Assembly: GCA_903959175.1 (NCBI GenBank)
Contig: CAJBVW010000196.1
Coordinates: forward strand, 1-34,035
Origin: an uncultured Pseudomonadota bacterium
GTDB lineage: Bacteria > Myxococcota_A > UBA796 > SXON01
Reading direction: 5' to 3'
Length of the DNA stretch: 34,035 bases
Below are positions 6,538 to 26,898 of the stretch, piece after piece; position 1 is the stretch's first letter; every line of letters starts with the position of its first letter. Made by a program: the position numbers and the translations under genes. The notes beneath the pieces are model-generated. The model was not told the DNA's origin. It saw only the letters and a program-made list of their open reading frames with translations, and ran no database searches.

Positions 6538-8127
6538 TCACCCCTCCTGCATCAACCCACGGATCTTCCCGCTCGCGTCCACATGGATGCGCTTGGCGGC
6601 GGGCTCTTTCGGCAGGCCGGGCATGGTCTGGATGTCGCCCGCGAGCGCCACGACAAAACCCGCGCCGGCGTGGAGGCGCAGCTCGCGCACGTGCAGCGTG
6701 TGGTCGGTCACGAGGCCCTTGCGCTTTGGGTCGTCGGTGATGGAGAGCGGCGTCTTCGCGACACACACCGGGAGCGCGCCGCCGCCGAGCGCGGTGACGC
6801 GGGCGAGGTCCTTCTTGGCGGACTCCTCGAGGACGACGCCGTTCGCGCCGTACAGATCGCGGGCGAGGGTGCCGAGCTTGTCGGGGATGGGCATGTCGAG
6901 CGGGTAGAGCCAGCGGGGCGTCGGGGGAGGGGAGCCGAGCGGGGGGAGGCCGTCCAGCACCACATCCGCGGCCTCGAGGGCGCCCTCGCCGCCGTGGGCG
7001 AAGCCGTCGCAGGGGGCGAAGGCGGCGCCGCGCTCGGCGCAGTAGGCGCGCACGCGGTCGACGTCGGCGGCGGTGTCGTCCGGGAAGCGGTTGAGGACGA
7101 CGACGGGGTCGAGATCGAAGCGCGCCACGCCGGCGAGGTGGTGGCCGAGGAGGGCGAGGCCGCGGTCGAGGTCTCCCTCGCCGTGCCAGAGGAGCGCGCG
7201 GCGGGTCACGACGAGCACGACCTTGCTGGGCCAGAGCCCGGGGGCGCGCGCCTTGATGTCGAGGAACTTCTCGCCGCCGAGGTCGAAGGCGAAGCCGGCC
7301 TCGGAGAGCACGATGTCGCTGTGGGCGAGCGCCATGCGCGTCGCGATGCGGGAGTTGCAGCCGTGCGCGATGTTCGCGAAGGGGCCGCCGTGGACGAACG
7401 CGGGGCCGCCCTCCGCGGTCTGGACGAGCGTGGGGAGGAGGGCCTCGGCGAGCAATGCGGACATGCCGCCGACGGCGTTCAGATCCGCGGCGGTGACCGG
7501 GGTGTTGTCGGTGGTCTCGCCCACGATGAGCCGGGCGAGGCGGGCCTCGAGGTCGGCGCGGTTTTCGGCGAGGCAGAGGATGGCCATCACCTCGCTCGCG
7601 GCGGTGATGTCGAAGCCGGACTCGCGGGGGACGCAGTCGAGGCCGACCATCACCCGACGCAACGCGCGATCGTTCATGTCGAGGACGCGGCGCCACCGTG
7701 TCTTGCGGGTGTCGAGGCCGGTGCGGTGCTCCAGGGCGTGGTCCACGAGGGCGGCGAGGAGGTTGTGCGCGCTGGTGATCGCGTGCATGTCGCCGGTGCA
7801 GTGGAGGTTGATCGCGTCGGACGGCTCGATCGTAGCGCGCCCGCCGCCGGTGCCGCCGCCCTTGCGCCCGAACACCGGCCCGATCGAAGGCTCGCGCAGG
7901 GCGAGCCCGACGCGCTGCTCGCGCTGGCGCAGGCCCATCGCGAGCGAGATCGCCATCGTGGTCTTGCCCTCTCCCGACGGGGTCGGCGTGATCGCGGAGA
8001 CGAGCACGAGGCGGCCCTTCGGCGGGCCCGCAGCGTCGAGCGAGACCTTGGCCCGGCCGGGGCCCCAGGGGTGGACGTGGTCGCGGGAGAGGCCGAGCTC
8101 GTCGGCAACTTCGATGATGGGGCGCAT
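6538..8127 (-). CDS. fhs: Formate--tetrahydrofolate ligase
   Basis: ITPTPSGEGKTTMAISLAMGL, LREPSIGPVFGRKGGGTGGG, DINLHCTGDMHAIT-like segment, NGVVLEESAKKDL, GDIQTMPGLPKEPAA. ATG at 8127 gives 529 aa; the longer six-frame extension upstream is spurious. Confidence 0.97.
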   Translation of the reverse strand: MRPIIEVADELGLSRDHVHPWGPGRAKVSLDAAGPPKGRLVLVSAITPTPSGEGKTTMAISLAMGLRQREQRVGLALREPSIGPVFGRKGGGTGGGRATIEPSDAINLHCTGDMHAITSAHNLLAALVDHALEHRTGLDTRKTRWRRVLDMNDRALRRVMVGLDCVPRESGFDITAASEVMAILCLAENRADLEARLARLIVGETTDNTPVTAADLNAVGGMSALLAEALLPTLVQTAEGGPAFVHGGPFANIAHGCNSRIATRMALAHSDIVLSEAGFAFDLGGEKFLDIKARAPGLWPSKVVLVVTRRALLWHGEGDLDRGLALLGHHLAGVARFDLDPVVVLNRFPDDTAADVDRVRAYCAERGAAFAPCDGFAHGGEGALEAADVVLDGLPPLGSPPPTPRWLYPLDMPIPDKLGTLARDLYGANGVVLEESAKKDLARVTALGGGALPVCVAKTPLSITDDPKRKGLVTDHTLHVRELRLHAGAGFVVALAGDIQTMPGLPKEPAAKRIHVDASGKIRGLMQEG

Positions 8128-8205
8128 GGCGGGGCGCTTATCGCCCGCGCGAGGAGGGGGCCCGGCCCGTGAGCGGTTAGGATCCGCGGCCGCCGGAGCC
8201 TGCCC

Positions 8206-9867
8206 GTGAGCCGTGTGTCCACCGTCGCCGACCTCGTCCACGATCGCGCCGAACGTGCGCCCGACATCGTGGCGTTCCGCTTCCTCGGCGCCCGCGACGG
8301 CGACCAGGAGGACATCTCCGCGTCCGGCCTCTACGCGCGCGCCCTCGCCCTCGCGTCCCGCCTCGACGTCGCCCCGGGGGACCGCGTCCTCATCCTCCAC
8401 CCGCCGGGCCTCGGCTACATCGCGGCGTTCTTCGGGTGTCTCCTCGCGGGCGCGGTGCCGGTTCCGGCCTACCCGCCGCGGATGAACCGCAACCTCGAGC
8501 GCATCCAGGCGATCATGGCCGATTGTGGCGCCTCGGTGGCCGTCACGACCGCCGTGATGGCCGCGCGCCTCGCCCCCGAGGCCGAGCTCGCCGGGCTGCG
8601 GTGGGTCGCGGAGGACGCGCCGGAGGCCGCGGGCCCGTTCACCCCCGTCGCGGTCGATCCTAGCTCCCTGGCGTTCCTCCAGTACACGTCGGGCTCCACC
8701 GGCACGCCCAAGGGCGTGATGGTGACGCACGCGAACCTCCTCGCCAACCTCGCAGCCATCAACGAGCGCTTTCGCCTCGGCGAGCAGAGCCGCGGCGTCA
8801 TCTGGCTCCCGCCCTTCCACGACATGGGCCTCATCGGCGGCATCCTCGCCCCGATGTCCGCGCGCTTCACCTGCGTGCTCCTCGCGCCGACCACCTTCCT
8901 CGTGCGGCCCTCCGCGTGGATCACGGCCGTCTCCCGCGAGCACGCCACCGTCAGCGGCGGGCCCGACTTCGCGTGGGCGCTCGCGACGCGCCGCGTCTCC
9001 GAGGCCGTTCGCGCCACCCTCGATCTGTCCACGTGGGACGCTGCCTTCACCGGCGCCGAGCCCGTGCGCCCCGCCACCCTCGCCCGCTTCACCGAGGCCT
9101 TCGCCCCGTGCGGCTTCCGCGCCACCTCGTTCCTGCCCTGCTACGGCCTCGCCGAGGGCACGCTCCTCGTCAGCGGCGTCGCCCAGCGCGCCGGCGCCAG
9201 CACCCTCGCGCTCTCGCCCGAGGCCCTCGCCCGCATGGAGGTCGCGCCCCCCACCGCGGAGGCCGGCACCGTCGAGGTCGTGAGCTGCGGCCCCGCCGCC
9301 CTCGCCACGGAGCTCCGCATCGCCCACCCGGAGACCGGCGCCCCGCTCGCCGCGAACGAGGTCGGCGAGATCCTCGCGCGCGGCCCGAGCATCGCTGCCG
9401 GCTACTGGAACCGCCCCGAGGTCACCGCCGAGGGCTTCCGCGACGGCTGGCTCCACACGGGTGACCTTGGTTTTCTCGCCGACGGCCAGCTCTACGTCAC
9501 CGGCCGCAAGAAGGACCTCGTCCTGTTGCGCGGCCGCAACCTCTACCCGCAGGACCTCGAGGTCGCCGCCGAGGCCGCCCACTCCGACGTGCGCGGCAAC
9601 TCCAGCGCCGCCTTCGGCGTCGAGGTTGACGGCGAGGAGCGCCTCGTGCTCGTCCTCGAGGTGGACGGCCGCAAGGTGCCCGACCCGGGCCCCATCACGG
9701 ACGCCGTGACCGCCGCCATCGCGCAGGCCTTCGACGCGACGGTGTACGCGGTGACGCTCCTCCCGGCGGGCGGCATCCCGCGCACGAGCAGCGGCAAGGT
9801 GCGCCGCGCGGCGACCCGGCTGGCGTGGTTGGCGGGGACGCTCACGGGCGCGGGGGACGAGGGCTGA
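8206..9867 (+). CDS. Fatty acyl-AMP ligase (AMP-dependent synthetase family)
   Basis: LQYTSGSTGTPKGVMVTHANL, GVIWLPPFHDMGLIGG, PVPAYPPRMNRNLERIQAI, GWLHTGDLGFLADGQLYVTGRKKDLVLLRGRNLYPQDLE. Confidence 0.93.
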   Translation: MSRVSTVADLVHDRAERAPDIVAFRFLGARDGDQEDISASGLYARALALASRLDVAPGDRVLILHPPGLGYIAAFFGCLLAGAVPVPAYPPRMNRNLERIQAIMADCGASVAVTTAVMAARLAPEAELAGLRWVAEDAPEAAGPFTPVAVDPSSLAFLQYTSGSTGTPKGVMVTHANLLANLAAINERFRLGEQSRGVIWLPPFHDMGLIGGILAPMSARFTCVLLAPTTFLVRPSAWITAVSREHATVSGGPDFAWALATRRVSEAVRATLDLSTWDAAFTGAEPVRPATLARFTEAFAPCGFRATSFLPCYGLAEGTLLVSGVAQRAGASTLALSPEALARMEVAPPTAEAGTVEVVSCGPAALATELRIAHPETGAPLAANEVGEILARGPSIAAGYWNRPEVTAEGFRDGWLHTGDLGFLADGQLYVTGRKKDLVLLRGRNLYPQDLEVAAEAAHSDVRGNSSAAFGVEVDGEERLVLVLEVDGRKVPDPGPITDAVTAAIAQAFDATVYAVTLLPAGGIPRTSSGKVRRAATRLAWLAGTLTGAGDEG

Positions 9868-12559: not shown

Positions 12560-13573
12560 ATGCTCTTCCTCGGCAATTCGTACACCTTCATGGGCGCGCT
12601 GGACGACGTGACGGAGGCCCTCTTCGTGGCCGCCGGAGAGGAGGTCACCGCCAACCGGCTCGCCGAGCCGGGCTGGACCTTCCCGCAGCACGTCGAGGCC
12701 ATCGAGACGGACGGCACCGCGTGGCATGTGGCGTTCGACGCGCCGAACGACTGGGTGATCCTCCAGGACCAGAGCCAGATCCCCGGCTTCCCGGACGGCC
12801 AGCCCGACCGCGTGGCGAGCCAGGCCGCGGCGGTCGTCCTGGACGGCTACGCCGCCGGCACCGGCGCCCAGACGATGTTCCTGATGACGTGGGGCCGGCG
12901 CGCGGGCGACGAGCAGAACCCCGAGATCTACCCCGACTACGACACGATGCAGACCGCCCTGACCGCGGGCTACCTCGACTACGCCGCGCTCGCCTCCGAG
13001 GACGGCACCCCCGCGTGGGTCGCGCCCGCCGGGCTCGCGTGGCGCCGGGTGTACGACGACGTCGTGGCCGGTGGCGGTGACCCCCTCGACCCCACCAGCG
13101 CCTTCTACGGGCTCTACATCGCGGACGGCAGCCACCCCTCCGAGCGCGGGACCTACCTCGCCGCGTGCGTCATCTACGCGAGCGTCACCGGGCTCACGCC
13201 GGTCGGCCTCGGCGCGCCGGAGAGCGTCGCGGACGCCGGCTACCTCCAGGGCGTCGCGTCCGCGGTCGTACTCGAGGGCGGGGGGATCGCGTACCCGTGG
13301 CAGGTGGGCACCGACACCGGCGGGACCGACACCGGCACCGACGACACCGACACCGACACCGACACCACAGACGACCCGGCCGACACCGCCGATGGGTCGG
13401 GCTGCGGGTGCACCGCGGCCCCTGACGGCGCGGGCGGCTGGGTGCTCGGGTTCGCCCTGCTCGCCGTCCGTCGCCGCCGTGGGTGCGCTACCCGCCCGCC
13501 GTCCAGCCCTGGCCGTCCCAGTGGTACTCCACGGTGTAGGCTTCGTCGTCAGCGGGGGCCACCTGCCGCTTGA
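12560..13573 (+). CDS. SGNH hydrolase-like (DUF4886-like) protein with MYXO-CTERM-like tail
   Basis: LFLGNSYTFMGALDDVT, WVILQDQSQIPGFP, YIADGSHPSERGTYLAACVIY; Thr/Asp-rich linker, then GCGCTAAPDGAGGWVLGFALLAVRRRR. Confidence 0.75.
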   Translation: MLFLGNSYTFMGALDDVTEALFVAAGEEVTANRLAEPGWTFPQHVEAIETDGTAWHVAFDAPNDWVILQDQSQIPGFPDGQPDRVASQAAAVVLDGYAAGTGAQTMFLMTWGRRAGDEQNPEIYPDYDTMQTALTAGYLDYAALASEDGTPAWVAPAGLAWRRVYDDVVAGGGDPLDPTSAFYGLYIADGSHPSERGTYLAACVIYASVTGLTPVGLGAPESVADAGYLQGVASAVVLEGGGIAYPWQVGTDTGGTDTGTDDTDTDTDTTDDPADTADGSGCGCTAAPDGAGGWVLGFALLAVRRRRGCATRPPSSPGRPSGTPRCRLRRQRGPPAA

Positions 13574-14012
13574 TGCCGCCGTCGGTGAAGGTGAACTTCT
13601 CGTCCCACTTCTCGTCGCGGTCGAGGTCGACCTTGGCCCGGTTCGCCGTCGTCTTGCCGGCGTCCTGGTACACGTTCATCTTCCACGGCTTGCCCGCGCC
13701 CACGTCCTTGAGCTTGTCCGCGCCGAGGTCCTTCCCCAGGTAGGTGAGCAGCGTCGTGTCGATGTCGCGCGCGCCGGGGGCAGCCGCGGCGTTCAGCGCG
13801 TCAACCGCGAGGGCCTCGGGGCCGGGCACCGCGCTCGGCGGTGGGGTGGCGGGGAGCGCGGGGACGACGACGGGCGGCGTGGCGGCGATCGCCGGCGGGG
13901 GGGCCGCAGGCTCCATCGTGAACGTGGCGAAGGCGAAGCCGGCGGCGCCGCAGACGCCCCCGACGACGAGCACGGAGAGGAACGTGGAGAGCTTCATCTT
14001 GCCGGCGAGCAT
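13488..14012 (-). CDS. Small secreted or membrane-anchored protein, last gene of the radical SAM operon
   Basis: MLAGKMKLSTFLSVLVVGGVCGAAGFAFATF signal/TM, Pro/Ala linker, conserved-looking C-terminal domain. Start ATG overlaps upstream stop (TGATG). Confidence 0.72.
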   Translation of the reverse strand: MLAGKMKLSTFLSVLVVGGVCGAAGFAFATFTMEPAAPPPAIAATPPVVVPALPATPPPSAVPGPEALAVDALNAAAAPGARDIDTTLLTYLGKDLGADKLKDVGAGKPWKMNVYQDAGKTTANRAKVDLDRDEKWDEKFTFTDGGIKRQVAPADDEAYTVEYHWDGQGWTAGG

Positions 14013-14869
14013 CAGGCGCTCCGATGCGGGAGGGGAGAGGGGAGCACCATGCCGCGTTCGCGCGGGATCGTGCAGTTGCAGTAGCTATACCGACACGGCT
14101 CGGGCGCAAAGCGCGGGCGGAAGGTGCCGTCGAGCAGGTTGCCCAGGCGCTCGGTGCGGGCGCGGCGCGCGGGGTAGCAACGCCAGGCGTCGCCGCGGTC
14201 GTCCACGATGAGGTAGCGGGCGCCGGCCCAACACATCCGGCCCTCGTAGGTCGGCGCGAGCGCGCCGGTGCCGTTGTGGCCGCCGAGGGCGAGGAGCGCG
14301 TCCTGCTCGTCCTGGCCGTAGTCGATGACGTCGCGGTCCTGCTTCTCGGGTTGAACCTTGAAGGAGAGCGGCGCGAAGGCCTCCCGCAGCGCGGCGAGGC
14401 GTGGCAGGTTGGCGCGCGTGGCGACGCAGGTGACACAGGTGCGCCCGGCGTGCGCGGCGGCGACGCGCAGGAGCTTCTCGCGAAAGGCGTCGGGATCGGC
14501 GTACTCGAGGTGGAGGGACGCGGAGAGCACGCCGGGGCGGGCCGCGGTGAGGGCGGCGTAGCGGAGGAGGACGTCCTCCTTCGCGGAGAGGTTGGTCACG
14601 ACGCTGACGCGCCGGCCCTGGGCGGCGAGGGCGCCGACGAGGTCGAGGAAGCGGGGGTGGAGGAAGGGCTCACCGCCGGAGAGCTTGATCTCCCAGTCGC
14701 CGGGGAGCCGCGCGAAGGCCGCGATGAACGCGGGGAGATCCTTGGCCCAGCGCGTACGGTCGTCGAGGAAGCGCTGGGTGCAGTAGGTGCACCGGTAGTT
14801 GCACGTCGTGTTCATGTTCCACGACACCACTCCCTCGAGCGGGTACTCCGGCGCCTCTTCCGCGCTCAC
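14012..14869 (-). CDS. Radical SAM protein with C-terminal Cys cluster (1)
   Basis: CNYRCTYC (Cx3Cx2C); IKLSGGEPFLHP; C-terminal CWAGARYLIVDDRGDAWRC plus CRYSYCNC; GTGA overlap with upstream gene. Confidence 0.9.
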   Translation of the reverse strand: MSAEEAPEYPLEGVVSWNMNTTCNYRCTYCTQRFLDDRTRWAKDLPAFIAAFARLPGDWEIKLSGGEPFLHPRFLDLVGALAAQGRRVSVVTNLSAKEDVLLRYAALTAARPGVLSASLHLEYADPDAFREKLLRVAAAHAGRTCVTCVATRANLPRLAALREAFAPLSFKVQPEKQDRDVIDYGQDEQDALLALGGHNGTGALAPTYEGRMCWAGARYLIVDDRGDAWRCYPARRARTERLGNLLDGTFRPRFAPEPCRYSYCNCTIPRERGMVLPSPLPHRSA

Positions 14870-15762
14870 GCCTCCGCCTCGGCGAGCGTCGATCCGGCGC
14901 CGACCCCCTCGATCATCCCGCGATTGGCGGGCACGGTGCACGGGCAGATCTCCCAGGGGCACGTCCGCGGCGCGTCGCGGAGCCGGAGGGTGCCCTCGTA
15001 GAGGTTGCCCATGCGCCCCGCAGCGTTCCGTTTGGCCGTGCGGCAGGACCACGCGGCGCCGTCCTTGTCGACGGTGAAGTAGTCCACGCCCGCCCAGCAG
15101 CGGCGGCCGCGGTAGCTCGGCGCGAGGTTGGCCTGCCGTGGGTCGGGGGCGTCTCCGATGAGGGCGCGGAGCGCGACGGGGTCGGGGTACTCCGCCACGC
15201 CGCCCTTGGTCTTGAACAGCTGGGGGAACCAGCGCAAGCCCGCCCCCTCGACGGCGGCACGGCACGCCGCGGCCTCGGCTTCCCGGCCGGGGAGCACGAC
15301 CTGGTTCACGACGAAGCGCACGTCCGGGTCGAGGCCGTCCACCAGCCACCGCGCCTTGTCGACGAAGGCGCCGACGGCGGCGAACTCGAGGTGGAGCGAC
15401 GCGGAGAAGACGCGGAGGCGGCCGCGGGTGAGGGTGGTGAAGCGGGAGAGGTCCTCCCGCGAGGCGGAGAAGTTGGTGAGCACGGAGAGGGCGTGGGGCG
15501 TCTCCGCCATGAGGCCGGGCACGATGCGGTCGAGGAAGAGGGGGTGGGCGAAGGCCTCGCCGCCGGAGCACTTGATCTCCCACACCCCGGGGAGCGCCGC
15601 GAAGCTCGCGAGGGCGCGCTCCACCTGCTCGGGATCCGGCCGCCCCCGCCGGTACTTCGGCGACTGGATGCAGTAGGAGCAGTCGTAGTTACAGGCGCCG
15701 GCGACCTGCCACTCGACCGTCCGCTGGCGCGGCGCCGCTGTCAGGGGTGGGCCCCGCGTCAC
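14866..15762 (-). CDS. Radical SAM protein with C-terminal Cys cluster (2), paralogue of (1)
   Basis: CNYDCSYC; IKCSGGEAFAHP; CWAGVDYFTVDKDGAAWSC plus CPWEICPC; GTGA overlap with upstream gene. Confidence 0.9.
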   Translation of the reverse strand: MTRGPPLTAAPRQRTVEWQVAGACNYDCSYCIQSPKYRRGRPDPEQVERALASFAALPGVWEIKCSGGEAFAHPLFLDRIVPGLMAETPHALSVLTNFSASREDLSRFTTLTRGRLRVFSASLHLEFAAVGAFVDKARWLVDGLDPDVRFVVNQVVLPGREAEAAACRAAVEGAGLRWFPQLFKTKGGVAEYPDPVALRALIGDAPDPRQANLAPSYRGRRCWAGVDYFTVDKDGAAWSCRTAKRNAAGRMGNLYEGTLRLRDAPRTCPWEICPCTVPANRGMIEGVGAGSTLAEAEA

Positions 15763-16814
15763 CCCGGCCCCGCGAGGCGCTCGGCCCACTTCACGTTCTG
15801 CTCGAACTTGCCGCAGCGCTCGCAGCCGCGGAGGTAGCGCCCGGCGCCGAGCTCGTCCCGGAGCGCGTTCCAGCGGGGGCCGGTCCACAAGGCGGCGAGG
15901 TCGGCGTCGCGAAGGGAACCGACGTGGACGTTGGTGTTGCAACAATACAATACGTCTTCGTCCACCGTCACGCGGGTGTAGACGTACCCCATCCAGCACC
16001 CCACCTCCGCGATGGGGACGGTCACCAGCGCGGCCTCGGGCTCGGCGCTCGCGCGCACCTGCCGCTCGAACAGGTCGAGGTTGGTCGGCACGCGCCCCTC
16101 CGTCGCGATGCGGCGGGCCTCGGGGATGCCCTCGGCGAGCAGCCACGCGCGCTGCTCGTCCGTCATCGCGCAGCCCTCCGTCCCGTCCGCGAGGCTCGCG
16201 AGCTTGAAGTTGACGCGGTCGGCGCCGAACAGCTTGCCGAAGCGCACCATCGCCGGCACCTCCGGCGCGGTGTCGCGGTTGATGACCTGCACATGGCGCA
16301 CGCGCGTCCCCACCCGCGCGAGCGCCCGCAAGTGGGCGCACATCTTGAAGAAGTGGTCCTCCGTCCAGCCGGGGTGGAAGGCCATGTGGGTGGTCGGGCT
16401 GGCGCCCTGGACGCCCACGAGCACCTGGTCGATCCCGATGGGCGCGAGGCGCTCGATGTCGGCGGCGACGAGGTTGGTCATCAACGTGAGGCCCCAGCCC
16501 TGCGCCTTGACCGCGGCGAGCATCTCGTAGATGTCGGGGTGGGTGAGGGGCTCGCCCATGCCGGAGACGACGACGGACTCGACCGACCCGAAGGCGGCGA
16601 GGCTGGCGAGGAGCGCGTGGAAGCGAGCGATCGGTAGGCGGCGGCGCTTCCACGCGGCGGGGCGCCCCTCGGTCAGGAGCGGCGAGTGGTCCCAACACGT
16701 GACGCACGCGGCGTTGCACGTGTTGGTCACGTCGATGTGGACGTGGAGGGGCCCGGTGGCCGGACGCCCGGCGCGCATCCCGGCGAGCACGGCGTCGAGG
16801 CGGGCGCCCTTCAT
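15759..16814 (-). CDS. Radical SAM/SPASM-like protein
   Basis: DVTNTCNAACVTCW; VSGMGEPLTHPD; C-terminal VGCWMGYVYTRVTVDEDVLYCCN and GCERCGKFEQN; ATGA overlap with upstream gene. Confidence 0.9.
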   Translation of the reverse strand: MKGARLDAVLAGMRAGRPATGPLHVHIDVTNTCNAACVTCWDHSPLLTEGRPAAWKRRRLPIARFHALLASLAAFGSVESVVVSGMGEPLTHPDIYEMLAAVKAQGWGLTLMTNLVAADIERLAPIGIDQVLVGVQGASPTTHMAFHPGWTEDHFFKMCAHLRALARVGTRVRHVQVINRDTAPEVPAMVRFGKLFGADRVNFKLASLADGTEGCAMTDEQRAWLLAEGIPEARRIATEGRVPTNLDLFERQVRASAEPEAALVTVPIAEVGCWMGYVYTRVTVDEDVLYCCNTNVHVGSLRDADLAALWTGPRWNALRDELGAGRYLRGCERCGKFEQNVKWAERLAGPG

Positions 16815-18388
16815 CGCGGGCCCGCCATCTTCAGCACCTCGGCGAGGGGCCGCGCGCCGCCGCCCTCGAGCGAGTGGAGGTGCTTGAGCGCGACGTAGGG
16901 ATCCTCCGCGTCGGCGAGCCAGCGGGCGAGCGCGGGGGCGCACGCGGCGAGCGAATACTCGCGTTGGACGGGGATCGAACGGAGGAGCGAGAGCACGCCC
17001 ATCCAGTCCTGCCAGCGGCCGAACAGGTGAAACAAGGTGATACATGCGTCGAGCACGTCGCGGGGGCCGGCGGCGGGGAAGCGCCGCGCGAGCGCCTCTG
17101 CGACGGGTACCGCCTGGCTCACGTCCACGCCGACTTCGCCGCACAGCGCCACGAAGCGGGCGACGGACGCGCCGGCGGGCGCACGGAGGTCCGGAACGTC
17201 GACGCCGCGGTCGCGCAGCTCGGCGATGACGGCGCGGCGGCGGGCCCCGGCGCCGGGGAGCTCCGCCCCGAAGAGGCGGAGGAGCGCGAGGCCCTTGTCG
17301 CCGTCGAGGCCAGCGGCGAGGAGGGCGCCCAGCGTGTCGTCGTCCCAGCGCGCGAGGGAGGCGGCGACGTCGGCGGGATCGAGGGCGAGGGAGAGGACGG
17401 CCGCGGCGGCTGCGCGGGCGCCGTTGGTGCCGGCGGGCGCGACGGGGGCGAGCGCGTCGAGGAGGCCGGGGATGTCCTGGACGCGGCGGGCGACGGGCCC
17501 GAGCGCGGCGCCGAGGGCGCGGGCGGCCTGGTCGTCCGCGAGCTTCTCTTGCGGGAGGAACACGGTGGGGACGCCGACGAAGCGCAGCTCGTGCACGCTA
17601 TTGTAGCCCCCGGCGGACACCGCGGCGTCCGCGCCGGGGAGGAGCTCCATCGCGGCGTAGCGGTCCAGCCAGGTGATGCCCTCGCCGCGCCGCTCGGGGC
17701 CCTGGTAGAGCGGCCCCGCGGCCACGACCGCGTGCCAGCCGGCGCCGCGCACGGCGTCCACCACGCGGGGGAGCACGGTCGCGGTGCTCGGGTCCCCGCC
17801 GCCGCCGAGGGCCACCCAACATGCTCGCTTCCCGTCGGGTACGCCGAGGGCGGCGCGCGCCGCGGCGCGGGAGTGCAGCTCGGGGCGCTCGCGCAGCAGG
17901 ATGGGGGAGGCGACCTCGTCCGGGACGATCACGCGGTCGTAGAGCGGCAGCAGCGCGTCGAACGCGGCCTCCTTCTCGGCCTCGGGCTTCATGGCGCGCC
18001 GCACCAGCACGCGGCGCCGCACCAGCTCCAGCGCCGCCGCGAGCTCGCCGAAGCTGCCCGCGGGGAAGGTGTCGACCACGAGCACGTCGGGCTGGAGCGT
18101 CGCGACCGCCTGGAGCACCCACGCGCGCGCGACGGCGAGGTAGCGGGCGGGCTCCAGCCCCGCGTCCCGCATCATCGACTTCGACGGGATCTTGATCGAC
18201 GGGATGCCCTCCCGCCGCGCGAGGGTGTCGGCCTCGGAGGAGGTGAGCACCCAGCACTCCGCCTTGACGCCCGCGGCGCCCGCGAGCCGCCGCACCCAGC
18301 GCAGGATCGCGAGCTGACGTGTCAGGTGGCCCATCCCGCGGCCGTTGATGGCGTAGCCGAGCACGCGGACGGTCTTCATCGGGGGCAC
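16811..18388 (-). CDS. MurG/GT28-like glycosyltransferase with C-terminal helical extension
   Basis: VLGYAINGRGMGHLTRQLAI, ACWVALGGGGDPSTATVL, AAVSAGGYNSVHELRFVGVPTVFLPQEKLADDQAARA. Confidence 0.85.
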   Translation of the reverse strand: MPPMKTVRVLGYAINGRGMGHLTRQLAILRWVRRLAGAAGVKAECWVLTSSEADTLARREGIPSIKIPSKSMMRDAGLEPARYLAVARAWVLQAVATLQPDVLVVDTFPAGSFGELAAALELVRRRVLVRRAMKPEAEKEAAFDALLPLYDRVIVPDEVASPILLRERPELHSRAAARAALGVPDGKRACWVALGGGGDPSTATVLPRVVDAVRGAGWHAVVAAGPLYQGPERRGEGITWLDRYAAMELLPGADAAVSAGGYNSVHELRFVGVPTVFLPQEKLADDQAARALGAALGPVARRVQDIPGLLDALAPVAPAGTNGARAAAAAVLSLALDPADVAASLARWDDDTLGALLAAGLDGDKGLALLRLFGAELPGAGARRRAVIAELRDRGVDVPDLRAPAGASVARFVALCGEVGVDVSQAVPVAEALARRFPAAGPRDVLDACITLFHLFGRWQDWMGVLSLLRSIPVQREYSLAACAPALARWLADAEDPYVALKHLHSLEGGGARPLAEVLKMAGPR

Positions 18389-18569: not shown

Positions 18570-19562
18570 TTGGCGCGAGTCCTGGTGATTGGGGTAGGGC
18601 AGATCGGGTCGGAGCTCGGCCCGGCGTTGGTGGAGCAGGGGCACGAGGTGGTCCTCGCGGATCGCCTGCCGCCCGAGGAGACCGCCGGCTGGGACGTGCT
18701 CCAGAAGGGCCTCGGCGCGGACGGCGTGCGCAAGCGCTGGCACCGGCTCGACGTCTCGGACACCCCCGCGCTCACCGGGCTCCTCCGCGAGCTGCGCCCC
18801 GACGTGACCTACCACCTCGCCGCCCTCCTCTCGGCCACCGGCGAGAAGAACCCCGACCTCTGCTGGCGCATCAACGTCGACACGACGCGGGAGGTCATCT
18901 CGACCCTCTCGTCGTTCAACGCCGCCGTCGCCCCGCGCCTCGTCGTGCCCTCCTCCATCGCCGCGTTCGGCCCCCTCCCTGGGGAGGAGATCCCGGCCGT
19001 CACGCCCGACCTCTACCCGATGATGCCCACGTCCATGTACGGCATCACCAAGGTCGCCGGCGAGCTCCTCGGCGCCTACGCCGCGGCCAAGCAGAACGTC
19101 GACTTCCGCGGCCTCCGCTTCCCCGGCCTGCTCAACACGGCGCCCCCGGGCGGCGGCTCGTCCGACTTCGCGAACATGATGTACTTCGCCGCGGCCGCGG
19201 GTAAGCACGAGGTCGAGGTGTTCTGCCGTCCCGACACGCGCATCCCGTTCATGTACATGCCGGACGCCGTCAAGGCCATCATCGAGGTCGCCATGGCCCC
19301 CGCCGCGCGCCTCTCCCGCCGCACCTACAACGTCGCCGCCATGTCGCCCTCCGCCGCCGACATCGCCGCTGCCCTCCGTGCCCGCGTCGGCCGCTTCGAC
19401 GTGCGCTACGTCCCCGACTTCCGCCAGGCCATCCTCGACTCCTGGCCCCGCGCCCTCGAGGACTCCCCCGCCCGCGCCGATTGGGACTGGAAGCCCACCT
19501 GGGACCTCGAGTCCATGACCGACGACCTCCTCGCGCAGCTCGGCTGGAATAAGCCCGCGTAG
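18570..19562 (+). CDS. tdh: NAD-dependent epimerase, L-threonine 3-dehydrogenase type
   Basis: VIGVGQIGSELGPAL, YGITKVAGELL, DFRGLRFPGLLNT, RPDTRIPFMYMPDAVKA, YVPDFRQAILDSWPRALEDSPARADWDW. TTG start. Confidence 0.85.
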   Translation: MARVLVIGVGQIGSELGPALVEQGHEVVLADRLPPEETAGWDVLQKGLGADGVRKRWHRLDVSDTPALTGLLRELRPDVTYHLAALLSATGEKNPDLCWRINVDTTREVISTLSSFNAAVAPRLVVPSSIAAFGPLPGEEIPAVTPDLYPMMPTSMYGITKVAGELLGAYAAAKQNVDFRGLRFPGLLNTAPPGGGSSDFANMMYFAAAAGKHEVEVFCRPDTRIPFMYMPDAVKAIIEVAMAPAARLSRRTYNVAAMSPSAADIAAALRARVGRFDVRYVPDFRQAILDSWPRALEDSPARADWDWKPTWDLESMTDDLLAQLGWNKPA

Positions 19563-19625: not shown

Positions 19626-20900
19626 CTACGAGATGTCGCCCACGTCCGCGAGCACCTGCGTCGCGGCCAGGGCGTCGCCGCGGTCGTGCTCCCAGCGCGG
19701 GTCGGTCACGACGACCACGTCCGGGTTGCGGTCGTACCAGCCGCGCAGGCGGGGCGTGAAGATGCCCGGGCGGTGGTTGTCGTTCATCAGCAGCCACCAC
19801 ATCTCGGGGGGCTGCGCGAGGTCGAAGCGGTCGTAGTCGTCGTAGCGGACGATGCGGTGCACCGTGGCGCGGGCCTTGTCGCGGCGGGCGCGCTGCGCGA
19901 GCAGCTTCTGCTCCACCTGGTCCGGCATCGTCACCTGGAGGTGCGCCTTCTTGGGGCGCGCCAGCTTCTGCGCCTTGGCCGAATACTTGTGCCGGGCGCC
20001 CACCAGCGCCTCCCGCGACGGGACCAGCCACGCCGTCTCCATCTCGTTCAGCGCGTCGATCTTCGCGGAGAGGCCGGACAGCCGCTTGAGGTGGACGAGC
20101 ACGCCGCGGTCGTCTCCCGCCCAGCTCGCGAGGAGCGGGATGTCCGCGCGCTCCAGGTGCGTGGCGAGCACGCCCTGGCACTCCTCCAGGTAGATCGTGG
20201 CGAGGTTGGCGAGGCGCCACGCGGCCTGATCGTGCTTGCGGACGTGGTCGTGCACCGCGCCGATGCCCTGCTGGATGCGCGCGACCTCCTCCCGCCACTT
20301 GTCCCGCGGGCCCCGCGCGGCCTCGTAGGCGGGCAGCACGTCGTCGCCGAAGTCGTCCAGGCCGAGGGTGGCGCAGATGCGGTCACCCGCAGCCCAGTGC
20401 CGCCAGTAGCTGGGCTGCCACCAGCGCTCCTCGAAGCCGGGCGTGTCGTAGCCGAGCTCGACCAGCTCGGTGAAGCCCTCCAGGTGCTCGAAGCGCTCGG
20501 CCTCGCGCTCCCAGGGCTCCAGCAGGTCCTTCGCCTCGGCGAGCGAGCGCGTGAGGCTGCCGTACGGCCCGACGAGCTGCTCGCGCTTCGCCCACTTCTC
20601 GTCGCCCACGAGCTTCGCGACCTGCGCCTGGAGCTTCTTCTCCTCGCGGGCCAACGCGTCCAGCGGGCGCCGCGTCGTGAACCCGCGGAACCCCGTGCGC
20701 CGCTCCGCCTCGGCGAAGGCGGCCTCGGTCAGCTCGGGCAGGTACACCTTCGCGAGCGTGTTCGCCAGGGAAGACCGCTCCTTCTCCAGGGCGGTGACGG
20801 CGCTCCCGATCTCCCCGGTGAGCGTGCCGATATCCGAGAGCTCGTCCTCCGCGAGGGAGGCGTAGCGAGAGAATTCCGAGGCGGCGTCGCGACCGAGCAT
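19626..20900 (-). CDS. Hypothetical protein with charged helical N-terminal half
   Basis: Continuous ORF from ATG 20900 (MLGRDAASEFSRYASLAEDELSDIG...), no motif recognised. Confidence 0.7.
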   Translation of the reverse strand: MLGRDAASEFSRYASLAEDELSDIGTLTGEIGSAVTALEKERSSLANTLAKVYLPELTEAAFAEAERRTGFRGFTTRRPLDALAREEKKLQAQVAKLVGDEKWAKREQLVGPYGSLTRSLAEAKDLLEPWEREAERFEHLEGFTELVELGYDTPGFEERWWQPSYWRHWAAGDRICATLGLDDFGDDVLPAYEAARGPRDKWREEVARIQQGIGAVHDHVRKHDQAAWRLANLATIYLEECQGVLATHLERADIPLLASWAGDDRGVLVHLKRLSGLSAKIDALNEMETAWLVPSREALVGARHKYSAKAQKLARPKKAHLQVTMPDQVEQKLLAQRARRDKARATVHRIVRYDDYDRFDLAQPPEMWWLLMNDNHRPGIFTPRLRGWYDRNPDVVVVTDPRWEHDRGDALAATQVLADVGDIS

Positions 20901-21038
20901 GGCGGGGATGTATCGGGGGGCGGGGGTGGGGGCGAGGGTGCGGGAGCGACGGGGGGTGGCGTCGACGAGGTGCATGAAGTCGGGGCAGGTGGCGATGCAT
21001 CATCGACGTGGGGAGGGGTGAGGGTAGCGACCGTGCGG

Positions 21039-21243: not shown

Positions 21244-21386
21244 CGGCTACCTCCTCAACCACAGGAGGTGGGGCCACTTGCGCGCGGTCGAGGCGCGGAG
21301 ACCTCCATGCACGTGGCCCACCCTCGGTTTATCCGGCGTGACCCCTCAGGCGGGCCGTCGGGTGCTTGGTGACGAAACGGGGGCTC
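21244..21386 (-). repeat. Degenerate copy of the approx. 142-bp inverted-repeat element
   Basis: Minus strand CCCCCGTTTCGTCACCAAGCACCCGACGGCCCGCCTGAGGGGTCA aligns without gaps to the 32856-32899 copy; far end only weakly matches. Confidence 0.5.
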
Positions 21387-22916
21387 GTCCTTCAGTGCGT
21401 ACTGGACGTGAGCCCCGCCCTCGTCGAGGGTGACGCGTTCGAGCAGGCGGTCGAGCGCCTCGCGGCGTAGTTCGAGGGGCTTGTCGGTCCAAGCCTGGAG
21501 CACCCGGGCGCGGAACTTCTCCGGGTCGGCCTTCTCGGCCGCGGGCAGCTCGCGGCGCTGAGGCATCGACGCCAGCTTCAGTTGGGCGGTCTCGCGCTGG
21601 GCGATCATCGGGGCGTTCAGCGCCTTCGCGTCGGCCGGCGCGATGATGCCGTCGATGACCGACTGACCGACTACGCGGACCTTGCGGTCGAGCTCGGCGA
21701 TGGTGGCCTCCAGCGCGGCGCGGTCCTGCGCGATGGAGTCGGGCGCATCGGCCAGCTCGACGAGCGAGCGGTCGATGAGAGCGCTGACGTTCTGCTTCGT
21801 GAGCACCTCGCTGGCGATGTAGTCGAGCAGGCCCGGGTCCATCACATCGCCACGGACCGTCAGCCCGAGGCAGTTCTCCTTGTTCTCCTGTCGCGTCGCG
21901 CAGACGTAGTAGTAATAGTCGGCCTTTCCCGAGCGTCCGCCGACGGTGACACACACCCGCCCGCCACACGTCCCGCACCGCAGCCAGGGCGTGAACAGGC
22001 CGTGCTCGCCAAGCCGAATCGGGTTGTGACCGTTGCTCCCTTCGGTCTTGGCACGCTCACGGAGCTTGCGGATCGCGGCGACCCGCACGAAGTCGTCGTC
22101 GGTGACCGCCGCGGGATGGGCATCCCTCGCCACGATCTCGCCGTCGTAGACGACGTGGCCTGCGTACACCCGGCTTGTGAGCAGCTGTTGGATGTGCTTG
22201 CGCCGCCAAGTTCCGCCGTGGCGCTCGCGGGGGAGGTCGGCGCGGCCGGGCGGATTGACCCCTTCGCGGGTCAGCTTCTCGGCGAGGCGCTTTCCGCCGT
22301 CGCGGCCGTCGAGGTACTCGGCGAACACGCGCTTCACCGTCTCGAAGTCGGCGCGGGTCTGGTCGGTGACGACGAGGCGGCCGCCGACGAGGGCGTAGCC
22401 GAAGGGGGCGTGTCCGTACTGCCACTGGCCCTTCTCCGCCTGGCTGCGCATCCCGCGCTGGACGTTGCGGGAGAGCTCCTCCGAGTAGCGCTCGGCCAGC
22501 CACGCGAGGATCGGGCGGATCAGCTTGCGGAACGACTTGTCGCCGGCGTCGGGCTCGGTGAGCGAGATCACGTCGACGTCAGCCTCGTCGAGGGTCGCGA
22601 GCGCGCGCAGGCAGTCGAACATGTTGCGAGCGACGCGCGAGAAGGCCCACACATAGAGCCGGTCGATCCTTTGGAAAGGGACCGCGCGCTTCTGCTTGGC
22701 GTCCCGCTGTGCCTCCGCGCGACGGAGGAGGGCCTGGTACGCCGCGCGCTTCTTCGCGGTGCGTCCGCTGATCCCCTCGTCGATGAACCACAGATCGTCG
22801 GGGATGGTGACACCATCGGCGGCGGCGCGACGGGAGATTTCTTCGCGTTGTTGCTCGATGCTCTTGTCCTGGCGGGGGTCCGAGCAGCGAAGGTAGGCGG
22901 CGCCGATGACGGGCAT
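21255..22916 (-). CDS. Large serine recombinase
   Basis: AAYLRCSDPRQDKSIEQQREEI, FSRVARNMFDCL, ELSRNVQRGMRSQAEKGQWQYGHAPFGY, zinc ribbon CGTCGGRV...YYYYVCATRQENKENC. Confidence 0.95.
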   Translation of the reverse strand: MPVIGAAYLRCSDPRQDKSIEQQREEISRRAAADGVTIPDDLWFIDEGISGRTAKKRAAYQALLRRAEAQRDAKQKRAVPFQRIDRLYVWAFSRVARNMFDCLRALATLDEADVDVISLTEPDAGDKSFRKLIRPILAWLAERYSEELSRNVQRGMRSQAEKGQWQYGHAPFGYALVGGRLVVTDQTRADFETVKRVFAEYLDGRDGGKRLAEKLTREGVNPPGRADLPRERHGGTWRRKHIQQLLTSRVYAGHVVYDGEIVARDAHPAAVTDDDFVRVAAIRKLRERAKTEGSNGHNPIRLGEHGLFTPWLRCGTCGGRVCVTVGGRSGKADYYYYVCATRQENKENCLGLTVRGDVMDPGLLDYIASEVLTKQNVSALIDRSLVELADAPDSIAQDRAALEATIAELDRKVRVVGQSVIDGIIAPADAKALNAPMIAQRETAQLKLASMPQRRELPAAEKADPEKFRARVLQAWTDKPLELRREALDRLLERVTLDEGGAHVQYALKDEPPFRHQAPDGPPEGSRRINRGWATCMEVSAPRPRASGPTSCG

Positions 22917-22962
22917 GGGGGAGGCTCTTGGGTGGGAGGTCAGTTGGACATAATTACGGCGG

Positions 22963-23463
22963 CTATGCGACTGCCCGGACGAAGGATTCTTCGAGGTCGC
23001 CGAGGCCGAGGCACGAGACGAAGGCCGGCAGGGACGGGATACCGGACGACGTGAACGACGGGCCCACCACGGGAACGCGGGGACGAAGCCGCGGCGCGTG
23101 GTCGCGGATGGTCGCGAGGAGCGCGAGGACGACCTTGTACTCATCCCCGACGAGGGGCCTGGCGCGCTCGGCGACGACATCCAGCGCCGCGGGGAAGTTC
23201 CGGTTCGCGGCGGCCACGGCGAGCGGGCGCGACTGCGACCCCGGCGACCACAGGCGCACGGTGGGGACCGGCGCGGTGAGGAAGTCGTCGCTTCCCCCGA
23301 TCATCCCGCGCGGACCCATGACCTCGAGGCGCGTGCTCGTGCCGTCCTCGCGATCGAAGGCGTAGAACAGGGAGCGCCCCTTGGACAGCGAGTTCCGCAG
23401 GAAGGCGACGTGCTTGGCGATGTACCGCTCCTCGCGGGCGGCGACGGCGGATGCGAGCCTCAT
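22963..23463 (-). CDS. Hypothetical protein downstream of XRE regulator
   Basis: ATG overlaps regulator stop (ATGA); 166-aa ORF MRLASAVAAREERYIAKHVAFLRNSLSKG... Confidence 0.65.
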   Translation of the reverse strand: MRLASAVAAREERYIAKHVAFLRNSLSKGRSLFYAFDREDGTSTRLEVMGPRGMIGGSDDFLTAPVPTVRLWSPGSQSRPLAVAAANRNFPAALDVVAERARPLVGDEYKVVLALLATIRDHAPRLRPRVPVVGPSFTSSGIPSLPAFVSCLGLGDLEESFVRAVA

Positions 23464-24047
23464 TGCCGTGCCTTCCGGGGCGAGAAGATCGCCGCGATCG
23501 TCGGTCCGTCGGCGCGTGCATTCGCGTCGACCTTCTTCGCGAAGTCCACGACGAAGCTCCAGACGGCGGGCGGAAACTTGGCGATGTCGTCCTCGGTGAA
23601 CCCGTCGGGCCGGAACAGCTCGTGGAGCATCAGCCGGTTGAACCGCCGCTCGTGCAGGTTCGCCAGCTCCTCGGCCACCTCCTCGGGCAGCTCGTACCGG
23701 ATGCCGACCTCGTGGAGCATCTGCCGCTCGTCCACCTCGTAGAGCCGCGCAAGCTTGCGCAGCAGCGTGACGTCCGGCATCGACCGGAGGTCGTACTGTT
23801 CCATCTGCGCGAGGTAGGTGTGGGAGATCCCGACCTTTCCCGCGGCGGCACGCAGCGAGAGGTTCGCGTCCTCGCGGGCCTGGGCGAGGTAGCCGCCGAA
23901 CGCCGGATTGGAGCCCCACAGGAGGCGGATCAGGCCACTCTTGCCCTCGGCGTCGGGGTCGTTGGGGACGGCGCCGGCCGTGAGGGCGAGCGGGGAGACG
24001 ATGCGGGGGTGCGGACGGGGCACGGGGGACCTCTCGGGTGGCGACAC
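23460..24047 (-). CDS. XRE-family transcriptional regulator (cI-like position)
   Basis: GGYLAQAREDANLSLRAAAGKVGISHTYLAQMEQYDLRSMPDVTLLRKLARLYEV. Confidence 0.85.
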   Translation of the reverse strand: MSPPERSPVPRPHPRIVSPLALTAGAVPNDPDAEGKSGLIRLLWGSNPAFGGYLAQAREDANLSLRAAAGKVGISHTYLAQMEQYDLRSMPDVTLLRKLARLYEVDERQMLHEVGIRYELPEEVAEELANLHERRFNRLMLHELFRPDGFTEDDIAKFPPAVWSFVVDFAKKVDANARADGPTIAAIFSPRKARQ

Positions 24048-24055
24048 ATATAGGA

Positions 24056-24124
24056 CACCGAACTGGAGTCGTCAAGTTGCCATAGGCTGGTCGCGCGAGT
24101 AAAGGATCGCTGTCCACTTCGGAG
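24056..24124. promoter_or_regulatory. Divergent regulatory region with imperfect inverted repeat
   Basis: CACCGAACTGGA (24056-24067) and TCCACTTCGGAG (24113-24124), 10/12 complementary, between divergent HTH genes. Confidence 0.4.
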
Positions 24125-24131
24125 CCTAACC

Positions 24132-24380
24132 GTGACCACTCACCCCTTCGCCATCTACCTCCGGCCCACCGCCATCGCGGCCGTCCTGTTCCGCCACCAC
24201 CTCTGCCAGGAGGGCTTCGCCTCGGAGATCGGCGTCTCCCGCCAGCACTGGTCGAGCCTGTTCAACCGGCGCCGCGCGCTCTCGCCGAAGGTGCGCCGCG
24301 CGTTGCTCGCGAACCCGCGGCTCGCCGGCGTTCCCGAGGCCGAGCTGTTCGAGGTCGTGGCCCTCCCCGCCGCCGCCTGA
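24132..24380 (+). CDS. Small Cro-like HTH protein
   Basis: QEGFASEIGVSRQHWSSLFNRRRALSPKVRRALL, divergent from the XRE regulator. Confidence 0.7.
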   Translation: MTTHPFAIYLRPTAIAAVLFRHHLCQEGFASEIGVSRQHWSSLFNRRRALSPKVRRALLANPRLAGVPEAELFEVVALPAAA

Positions 24381-24433
24381 CCTGACCCTCCCCCCGCGTC
24401 CGCCGAGCGTCCGTCCGGGCGCCTGGCGGAGCC

Positions 24434-25720
24434 ATGTCCGCCAAAAGCCACCCAGGAACCACGCCCATGAAGCCCACGCCCTCCACCATCAAGCCCACCG
24501 TCGCCGAACAGATCACCCGGGTCACCCCGCTGGACCCGCCCGACGACGACGTGCTCGGCGCCCTCGGCCTCGCACCGGGCAAGAAGCCCCGCGCGACCCG
24601 GCGCACGCTGCTCACGATCCTCCGTCTCGACCCGCGCTGGACCGGCCGCATCCGGCTCGATCGCTTCCGCGACGCCATCCTCGTGGACGGCGACGGCATC
24701 ACCGATCGCGACCTGACGCACATCGCCTGCTGGTTGGAGGAGGTCTACGAGGTCAACCCGTCGAAGGACCTCATGGTGGAGTGCTTGTCCGCCGTGGCGG
24801 CCGAGAACAGCTACCACCCGGTGATCGACTGGGCGGCGACGCTCGCGTGGGACGGCATCGAGCGGCTCCCGTCGATGCTGACGACGTACTTCGGAGCGCC
24901 TGATGACGAGCTGACGCGCGAGATGTCGCGTGCCTGGCTGGTCGGCGGCGCCGCGCGGGTCAGGAAGCCGGGCTGCAAGCTCGACACCGTGCTCGTCCTG
25001 GTCGGCGAGCAGGGCGTCGGCAAGTCGTCGGCGTGCAAGGCGCTCATGCCGAACGCCAGCTTCTTCGCGGACACGCCGCTGGACCTCCGCTCGAAGGACT
25101 GCATGCAGAACCTCGACGGCGTGTGGCTTTACGAGCTCGCCGAGCTGGAGGGCCTGCGCGGGCGCAACCCGCAGCGCGTGAAGGCGTTCCTGACGAGCGC
25201 GGTGGACACGTACCGGGCTCCGTACGGGCGGCTTCCCGGCGCGCATCCCCGACAGTGCTTCTTCGTCGCCACGACCAACGAGCCCGAATTTCTCGTCGAC
25301 GCTTCCGGTGCGCGGCGCTTCTGGCCCGTCCCGGTACGCCGGATCGACGTGGCCGGGCTCGCCGCCGCCCGCGACCAGCTCTGGGCGGAGGCGTTCGCCC
25401 GCGTCGATCGCGGCGAGGACTGGCACCTTCCGTTCCGGCTGGAGAAGGCGCAGCGCGCGGCCGCCGAGATCTACGAGCAGACCGACCCGCTCGCCGAGCG
25501 GCTCGGCATCTGGGTCGCGGGCGTGGGCCGGGCGTTCACCATCGAGGAGGCCGTCGGCTGCGGGCTCGGGATCGCCGTCGAGAAGGTCGACAAGGCGCTG
25601 TCGATGAAGCTCGGCGGGATGCTCCACCGGCTGGGCTGCACCAAGTTCCGGCCCAGGCAGGGCGGGAAGCACCGGCCCTACCTCTGGGAGCCGGCCCAGC
25701 CCCGGTCCGAAGTTTCCTGA
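24434..25720 (+). CDS. VapE/VirE-family primase-helicase-like protein
   Basis: LVLVGEQGVGKSSACKAL (Walker A), WLYELAELEGLRGRNPQRVKAFLTSAVDTYRAPYGR, CFFVATTNEPEFLVDASGARRFWPVPV. Confidence 0.93.
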   Translation: MSAKSHPGTTPMKPTPSTIKPTVAEQITRVTPLDPPDDDVLGALGLAPGKKPRATRRTLLTILRLDPRWTGRIRLDRFRDAILVDGDGITDRDLTHIACWLEEVYEVNPSKDLMVECLSAVAAENSYHPVIDWAATLAWDGIERLPSMLTTYFGAPDDELTREMSRAWLVGGAARVRKPGCKLDTVLVLVGEQGVGKSSACKALMPNASFFADTPLDLRSKDCMQNLDGVWLYELAELEGLRGRNPQRVKAFLTSAVDTYRAPYGRLPGAHPRQCFFVATTNEPEFLVDASGARRFWPVPVRRIDVAGLAAARDQLWAEAFARVDRGEDWHLPFRLEKAQRAAAEIYEQTDPLAERLGIWVAGVGRAFTIEEAVGCGLGIAVEKVDKALSMKLGGMLHRLGCTKFRPRQGGKHRPYLWEPAQPRSEVS

Positions 25721-25818
25721 TCGAGGTTGGGCCAGGTTGGGCCAGCAAATACCGAGCGTTCAAGCGGCGCGATTCAGTGGCCTAACCTGGCCCAACCTCA
25801 AGTTGAGAAGTTCGGACC
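25704..25818. repeat. 40-bp imperfect inverted repeat (32/40) with 35-bp loop; includes GGTTGGGCCA tandem repeats
   Basis: Left arm 25704-25743, right arm 25779-25818; AGGTTGGGCCAGGTT core perfectly complementary. Confidence 0.85.
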
Positions 25819-25860
25819 ACGCGCGGACCATCGAAACCACCACCACCACGAGGGGACAAC

Positions 25861-26898
25861 ATGAGCAGGTTTCACGAGTACAACAACGAGTTCGACGAGG
25901 ACGATGACGGCGAGGACCTGGAGATCACCGACGAGGAGGAGGCCGCGTCCGACGACGAGGGCCGCGAGCAGGCCGCGCTGCTGATGGCGCACTGCGAGTC
26001 GATCGTCGGGAACAGGAAGGTTCACGAGGATCAGCGGCGGATGTGGTTCCGGATGGCGAAGCAGGCGCTTGCCGAGGGGGCGGAGCGGCGGGAGGCCGTG
26101 GAGGCGGAGGAGCGGGCCGAGCGGGAGCAGGAGGAGGCCGCCGAGCGGGCGCGGGGCAAGGCGGAGCGGGCCGCGAAGCATGACCGCGAGCTGATCGAGC
26201 GCGTGGACCGGGACGCCGCGATCCGGCGGCAGAACGCAGAATCTGCGAGGATCGAGGCGGAGGCGGCGTGGATGGCGGCGCAGGCGAGGCCGGTGGCGAG
26301 GAGTGTCGTGGTGGCTTCCCCGACGCCGGTGCCGGCGAGCGCCCCGCGGCGAGTCGAGGCACCGCGCAATGCCCCACCCAGGCTCACGAATCCAGCGTCC
26401 AGGGCGCCGTCGTCCTCGCCCGCGAGCCCTTCGCGGCCACACCAGCCCCCGCAGGCGACGGCTCAACCACCTTCGGCGCCGACGACGAGCGGGAACCGCG
26501 CGGTGCTCTCGGTGCCCGCGGCATCGCCCGCTCGTCGGGTGGCGCCGCCGCGCCCGATGCACGCGCCCTCGGGACCGCGCCCGCTCGTCTCCCGGACCCC
26601 CGCGCCCATCAGGTCGCCGCCGTTCGCGGCGCGAATGCCCGCGACCGTGACGGCGCCGGTCCCGCCGCCCACGGCCGTTCCGATGCCGACGGCGCCGCCG
26701 GCTCAGGAGCCGCCCCCGTTCACCGGAACGGATCTCGCTGCCTACCGCCGCTCGACCGGGCTCACGCAGGCGGTGTTCGCGCAGCACCTCGGCGTGACGC
26801 AGGGGACCGTGTCGAAGGCGGAGAGCAACCCGCGTGCGGTCCTCGGGCCGTCGCTGAGGCTCGCGATGTGGCAGCGCGAGCGGAATGATTCCGGATAG
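25861..26898 (+). CDS. Acidic/coiled-coil, Pro-rich protein with C-terminal XRE HTH
   Basis: N-term EFDEDDDGEDLEITDEEEAASDDE, Glu/Arg coil, Pro/Ala linker, C-term LAAYRRSTGLTQAVFAQHLGVTQGTVSKAES. Confidence 0.85.
   Translation: MSRFHEYNNEFDEDDDGEDLEITDEEEAASDDEGREQAALLMAHCESIVGNRKVHEDQRRMWFRMAKQALAEGAERREAVEAEERAEREQEEAAERARGKAERAAKHDRELIERVDRDAAIRRQNAESARIEAEAAWMAAQARPVARSVVVASPTPVPASAPRRVEAPRNAPPRLTNPASRAPSSSPASPSRPHQPPQATAQPPSAPTTSGNRAVLSVPAASPARRVAPPRPMHAPSGPRPLVSRTPAPIRSPPFAARMPATVTAPVPPPTAVPMPTAPPAQEPPPFTGTDLAAYRRSTGLTQAVFAQHLGVTQGTVSKAESNPRAVLGPSLRLAMWQRERNDSG

Follow-up and report, generated by a model that had tools for sequence, protein, structure and literature searches.

A conserved cassette of three radical SAM enzymes and a glycosyltransferase that may modify a membrane-anchored domain protein in scattered bacteria

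Contig CAJBVW010000196.1 (assembly GCA_903959175.1), analyzed here over its full 34,035 nucleotides and referred to as the window, comes from an uncultured Pseudomonadota bacterium that GTDB places in Myxococcota_A. On its minus strand it carries genes for a glycosyltransferase (GT), three radical S-adenosylmethionine (SAM) proteins (RS1, RS2, and RS3), and a small protein with a membrane segment (SEC), which together with the protein S6 and an optional protein S7 make up a conserved cassette. We lean slightly toward the view that this cassette modifies a protein and that its substrate is SEC, a membrane-anchored surface protein.

The genes encoding GT (16811-18388; GTG start, with an alternative ATG start at 18379), RS1 (15759-16814; ATG start, 351 amino acids [aa]), RS2 (14866-15762; GTG start, 298 aa), RS3 (14012-14869; GTG start, 285 aa), and SEC (13488-14012; ATG start, 174 aa) follow one another on the minus strand with overlapping stop and start codons: ATGA at GT/RS1, GTGA at both RS1/RS2 and RS2/RS3, and TGATG at RS3/SEC. 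A previous sequence-only reading of this DNA had described these five open reading frames, with their strands and overlaps, and had assigned them to a MurG-like glycosyltransferase, a SPASM-like radical SAM protein (RS1), a paralogous radical SAM pair (RS2 and RS3), and a signal-bearing 174-aa protein; our analysis confirms the five genes, with one hydrophobic segment near the N terminus of the 174-aa protein and only a remote likeness of GT to MurG. Positional G+C content supports the coding frame of each of the five genes. In a comparison of the window with the congener G001, the ratios of nonsynonymous to synonymous substitution rates were 0.19 for GT, 0.19 for RS1, 0.14 for RS2, 0.21 for RS3, and 0.41 for SEC, indicating that all five are under selective retention. 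The span 13488-18388 assigned to the gene set by the earlier reading was too short. A sixth member, S6 (19626-20975, minus strand; 449 aa), was recognized by homology and position beyond a divergent gene for an NAD-dependent epimerase (18570-19562, plus strand), which separates it from GT. The earlier five-gene set thus lacked S6 and S7, and SEC turned out to represent a family with one to four domain copies. The epimerase was rejected as a cassette member, since among the loci first fetched it was common only to the window and G001.

A locus search using one genome per species (GTDB) yielded 79 loci, 66 of which carry the cassette. In all 66, the genes present are arranged on one strand in the order (S7)-S6-GT-RS1-RS2-RS3-SEC. 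The six core genes lie completely within the fetched stretch in 36 of these loci, and many of the others end at contig ends. In 51 of the 52 loci with SEC, the cassette gene that comes directly after RS3 is SEC; in the single exception, an RS2-RS3 fusion replaces the two separate genes and is itself followed by SEC.

The enzymes and SEC are also jointly present or absent. A survey of 378 genomes from the phylum of the window found RS1 and the SEC domain together in 34, RS1 alone in 1, SEC alone in 3, and neither in 340 (Fisher p = 8.5e-44, uncorrected for kinship); the RS1 count of 35 leaves out two genomes holding just paralogues with 29-35% identity, and the SEC count is 37. Contig ends or incomplete assembly mark several of the exceptions: in G319 the contig ends right after RS3, G290 counts as SEC-only and yet has the cassette at a contig end, and G046 is a 78% complete genome with a short contig. 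The fourth exception is G322, with SEC-like genes but no RS3 above paralogue level. In Acidobacteriota, SEC and RS2/RS3 occur in the same 8 of 396 genomes, although for G444, one of the eight, the RS2/RS3 match was of the RS3 type only. Where the cassette is split, its parts are retained in the genome and RS3 and SEC are still adjacent: GT-RS1 lies apart from RS2-RS3-SEC in G041, S6-GT-RS1-RS2 lies apart from RS3-SEC in G048, and S6-GT is on a separate contig in the genome of locus L087. This retention argues for a joint function beyond mere linkage, with RS3 and SEC as the closest pair. The earlier proposal of one pathway is strongly supported by the invariant order, the shared occurrence pattern of SEC and the enzymes, and the joint retention of split parts; the genes do co-occur elsewhere, and the pathway reading stands.

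SEC of the window consists of an N-terminal MKLSTF motif with a membrane segment, a Pro/Ala-rich linker, and one beta domain of about 80 aa (13491-13728, minus strand; residues about 96-174, delimited by domain alignment). A strongly hydrophobic segment near the N terminus is present in 51 of 53 SEC proteins, and the N-terminal motif reads K-x-[KRTSN]-[TSHN]-F in 41 of the 53 and M[FY][IL][KRS][FY] in 10. One copy of the beta domain was found in 33 proteins, two in 17, three in one, and four in one. AlphaFold2 predicted six strands, with a predicted local distance difference test score (pLDDT) of about 81-95 over residues 91-174. Two of the predicted strands are K111-M-N113-V-Y115 and R125-A-K127-V-D129; since hydrophobic residues alternate with polar ones on both, K111, N113, and Y115 probably share one exposed face with R125, K127, and D129. 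A DxDRDxxWDE stretch resembles a Ca2+-binding loop. Cysteine is absent from the domain in nearly all members, which makes thioether chemistry unlikely. A fold search with the SEC model against the PDB returned nothing at E <= 0.001, the weak matches being single-sheet proteins such as OspA.

To which residues the enzymes might be directed is suggested by a comparison of 75 cassette-linked SEC domains with six domains located outside cassettes (L134, which comes from an incomplete genome, L135, L137, two in L138, and L140). In the cassette-linked domains, conservation reaches 85% or more at 15 positions. Position 111 is Lys in 75 of 75 and never Arg, in genomes that are mostly G+C-rich, and K102 and K127 are each present in 74. 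Outside cassettes, all six domains lack K102, while K111, N113, Y115, K127, and K139 each persist in a single domain; K100 persists in two and R125 in three, and three of the six have Arg at position 111. None of the six has lost D103, D129, R132, or D137, and W170, W136, and E138 are each retained by four or five. The strict Lys in linked domains, set against Arg in half of the others, suggests that at position 111 the amine matters and not charge alone. By this pattern, K102, K111, N113, Y115, and K127 may mark where the enzymes act, and D103, D129, R132, and D137 are candidate fold or Ca2+-like loop residues. We regard the comparison as a lead and not as proof. The earlier reading had left open whether the secreted protein is a substrate or a carrier; of the two, the residue patterns favor a substrate.

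All three radical SAM proteins have an intact cofactor motif. The CxxxCxxC motif is invariant in every homologue aligned, at C33/C37/C40 in RS1, C24/C28/C31 in RS2, and C23/C27/C30 in RS3. Against Radical_SAM PF04055 (cut-off 29.5), RS1 (52.3) and RS3 (42.5) pass and RS2 (26.9) is slightly under; RS1 also passes SPASM PF13186 (29.4; cut-off 21.5), a match that is absent in RS2 and RS3. Further conserved cysteines in RS1 (C273, C291, C292, C331, and C334), RS2 (C222, C240, C268, C273, and C275), and RS3 (C213, C231, C259, C264, and C266) appear suited to bind auxiliary iron-sulfur clusters. RS2 and RS3 are paralogues with 42% identity, and an RS2-RS3 fusion protein was detected in L110 and again in genome G245. 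Profile, PADLOC, and PDB sequence searches assigned the three proteins to no specific known family and gave generic or subthreshold matches only. The best full-length profile for RS2 (47.9, 1e-12) and RS3 (58.9, 5e-16) is the STM4011 family NF038073, whose cut-off of 200 both miss; our literature search turned up no paper on NF038073. Separately, an Elusimicrobia locus (L120:202-12452) contains about 10 consecutive radical SAM genes, seven of them RS3-like, with the other cassette genes absent.

GT is a GT-B type enzyme with invariant residues G17-H18, a glycine-rich stretch at 192-195, E264, D282, and Q284. Its C-terminal sugar-nucleotide region, in which the motifs are intact, remotely matches MurG (GT28) and YjiC (GT1) at 4e-8 to 1e-5. 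It differs from these types by about 150 additional aa at the C terminus, and its score of 18.7 is far from the MurG TIGR01133 cut-off of 250.25. S6, about 430 aa long elsewhere, immediately precedes GT in most of the other loci and was detected in 45 further loci. The AlphaFold2 model of S6 is all-helical (pLDDT 94), and a fold search against the PDB gave nothing at E <= 0.001, the matches being generic coiled coils. S7, of about 112 aa, precedes S6 in 20 of the 66 loci, and no homologue of it was found in the window. Neither the 59 SEC rows nor the 43 S6 rows searched gave a consistent Pfam or NCBIfam family above its cut-off, and S7 matched none.

From these data we propose the following route. 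SEC would be synthesized in the cytoplasm, where RS1, RS2, and RS3 would act on conserved side chains of the beta domain, most likely K102, K111, and K127 together with Tyr115 and Asn113. RS3 would be the closest partner of SEC, and the conserved SEC N-terminal motif would serve as a docking signal. GT would then attach a sugar to the modified domain, while S6, and S7 where present, would probably hold enzymes and substrate together. After modification, the membrane segment would leave the SEC domain outside the cytoplasm, a topology that we infer. One to four domain copies are as expected for a multisite substrate. In its most specific form, the proposal is of a new protein modification in which the radical SAM trio and GT turn conserved lysines (with Tyr and Asn) on the face of a folded, anchored, repeatable beta domain into an externally displayed, glycosylated, radical-derived group, in bacteria scattered over at least three phyla; this we put forward tentatively and with considerable doubt.

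Clustering of the neighbor genes of 67 loci bears on the nature of the product. The largest cluster of recurrent genes outside the cassette links just 8 of the 67, and the readable cluster members are generic (a protein-kinase-like frame and an ABC ATPase) or represent shadow frames or synteny of close relatives. In this set, genes for exporters, peptidases, synthetases, sugar nucleotides, lipids, or the cell wall are not recurrent neighbors of the cassette. That exporter, peptidase, and sugar-nucleotide genes are missing would suit a protein that leaves the cytoplasm by means of its own membrane segment, and it favors protein modification, though not conclusively, over a small-molecule or glycan pathway.

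Several observations weigh against SEC as the substrate. The usual substrates of radical SAM peptide maturases are short, flexible peptides, whereas the SEC domain is predicted to be well folded. Genome G322 has two SEC-like genes (L138:8710-9504 and L137:9173-9673), with domains lacking the cassette-linked lysines, and no RS3 above paralogue level. The residue comparison was post hoc, and its six outside domains come from four genomes, two of them from one protein; one outside copy, from the incomplete genome G046, keeps K111, N113, and Y115. In addition, the residue loss outside cassettes would be equally expected if SEC bound the product of the pathway. This last point belongs to the main rival explanation, which we consider unlikely: the radical SAM trio and GT would build a small glycosylated molecule or a glycan, and SEC would be an anchored carrier, receptor, or immunity-like partner whose Lys/Asn/Tyr patch binds that product. 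The distant solved relatives of RS1 in the PDB sequence search speak for it and against our preferred reading, since BtrN and cytosylglucuronate decarboxylase, two enzymes whose substrates are sugars or cyclitols, are among them. The patch itself, polar and exposed as judged from strand residue alternation, would suit ligand binding too. Such a pathway is, however, harder to reconcile with the missing exporter, synthetase, and sugar-nucleotide genes and with an RS3-SEC adjacency that survives splitting of the cassette. Strict Lys, not Lys/Arg, at position 111 exceeds the need for charge alone, and the conserved SEC N terminus before the membrane segment is left unexplained.

It is quite improbable, in our judgment, that the cassette modifies another envelope component, such as a glycolipid, which SEC recruits or senses. 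MurG/YjiC-type families include glycolipid- as well as small-molecule-transferring enzymes, and the membrane anchor of SEC would suit such a role; against it, lipid or cell-wall genes do not recur beside the cassette, and the joint presence and absence, in the two phyla tested, is specifically with SEC. The patchy distribution, together with weak matches of RS3 to PADLOC and NCBIfam viperin models (3.3e-15 and 9e-13), raised the idea of an anti-phage or nucleotide-based defense island with RS2 and RS3 acting like prokaryotic viperins. The viperin matches are confined to the shared radical SAM core, spanning the first ~80-100 residues, and the scores (25.9 for RS2 and 48.0 for RS3) do not reach the NF038283 cut-off of 180. 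Moreover, nucleotide kinase or other defense genes do not recur, and a membrane-anchored outer protein does not fit. We therefore rejected the defense reading, which we regard as highly improbable.

The earlier reading did not recognize the gene set as a described pathway, and neither did we: beyond generic Radical_SAM and SPASM, no curated cut-off was reached, and no description of the set was found in the open-licence literature searched. The cassette thus looks like an undescribed pathway. Among known systems, it resembles radical SAM/SPASM cassettes for ribosomally synthesized and posttranslationally modified peptides (RiPPs) of the streptide and darobactin type, with auxiliary-cluster enzymes beside a small protein in which Lys, Trp, and Tyr are conserved. 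As in RiPP loci, a small precursor-like gene (SEC) adjoins a maturase-like one (RS3) and is coinherited with it. A peptidase and/or exporter is common, but not universal, in RiPP cassettes; no such family recurs beside the cassette studied here. It further differs from the streptide and darobactin type by having three radical SAM enzymes, a GT, and a helical partner, and by a small protein with a membrane segment and one to four copies of a predicted folded domain. Radical SAM enzymes can join Lys and Trp in peptides (PMC9055067). Mycofactocin biosynthesis (MftA-F) is comparable in that it combines a radical SAM enzyme and a glycosyltransferase with a small precursor made by the ribosome, and its product is glycosylated (PMC7491314). 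However, RS1, RS2, and RS3 scored 25, 14, and 23, respectively, against the mycofactocin maturase cut-off of 265 (TIGR03962), other mycofactocin-type genes do not recur beside the cassette, and SEC is anchored and repeated. SynChlorMet-type cassettes (ScmE/ScmF) likewise have several radical SAM/SPASM proteins per cassette and occur across phyla, but their gene content differs, and RS1 scored 39 (ScmF) and 24 (ScmE) against a cut-off of 400.

According to the record titles, which can be wrong for metagenome bins, the cassette loci are mostly from Myxococcota or unplaced proteobacteria and also from Acidobacteriota, Cyanobacteriota, Planctomycetota, Spirochaetota, and Bdellovibrionota. The Cyanobacteriota loci are L115 and L089, the latter on a 3.16-Mb chromosome record; the most secure phylum placements are those of this chromosome and of the Acidobacteriota loci. 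In a tree of RS1, RS2, and RS3, two Acidobacteriota loci fell inside the Myxococcota-rich part (support 96-99), a nesting that fits transfer of the cassette between phyla without proving it. In three Acidobacteriota genomes of ~3.7 Mb with two replicons (G504, G546, and G477), the full set sits on a replicon of 1.00-1.08 Mb; parts of the locus show 76-86% DNA identity to Chloracidobacterium sp. CP2_5A. The genome of axenic Chloracidobacterium isolates is divided between chromosomes of about 2.7 and 1.0 Mb (PMC8245765). The three genomes appear to be Chloracidobacterium.

Some loci contain additional genes within or next to the cassette. A 366-aa gene follows RS2 in G040 and G048, where RS3-SEC is displaced (L020:7373-8473 and L023:3950-5050); in L020 its product shows a weak likeness to DUF4241. 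In the Acidobacteriota locus L087, a 276-aa protein with a repeated coiled-coil motif is encoded between RS1 and RS2 (8110-8940). In the window, a convergent gene (12560-13573, plus strand) whose product has a MYXO-CTERM-like tail runs into the end of the SEC gene, so that the two overlap; among the loci first fetched, a homologue was found only in G001 (68% identical), elsewhere in that locus. The region at 21255-33300 has a lower G+C content and encodes a large serine recombinase, a helix-turn-helix regulator, a VapE-like protein, and a NADAR-domain protein; it looks like an integrated mobile element ending near S6.

Three of the seven families (SEC, S6, and S7) belong to no named family, yet the gene order is conserved across phyla. 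If SEC is the substrate, the reach of radical SAM modification would go beyond short peptides and include a folded domain at the surface, and the cassette would provide a multienzyme route to lysine or tyrosine chemistry. The residue comparison pinpoints the exact side chains to examine, and if G504, G546, and G477 are Chloracidobacterium, the cassette exists in a cultured phototroph.

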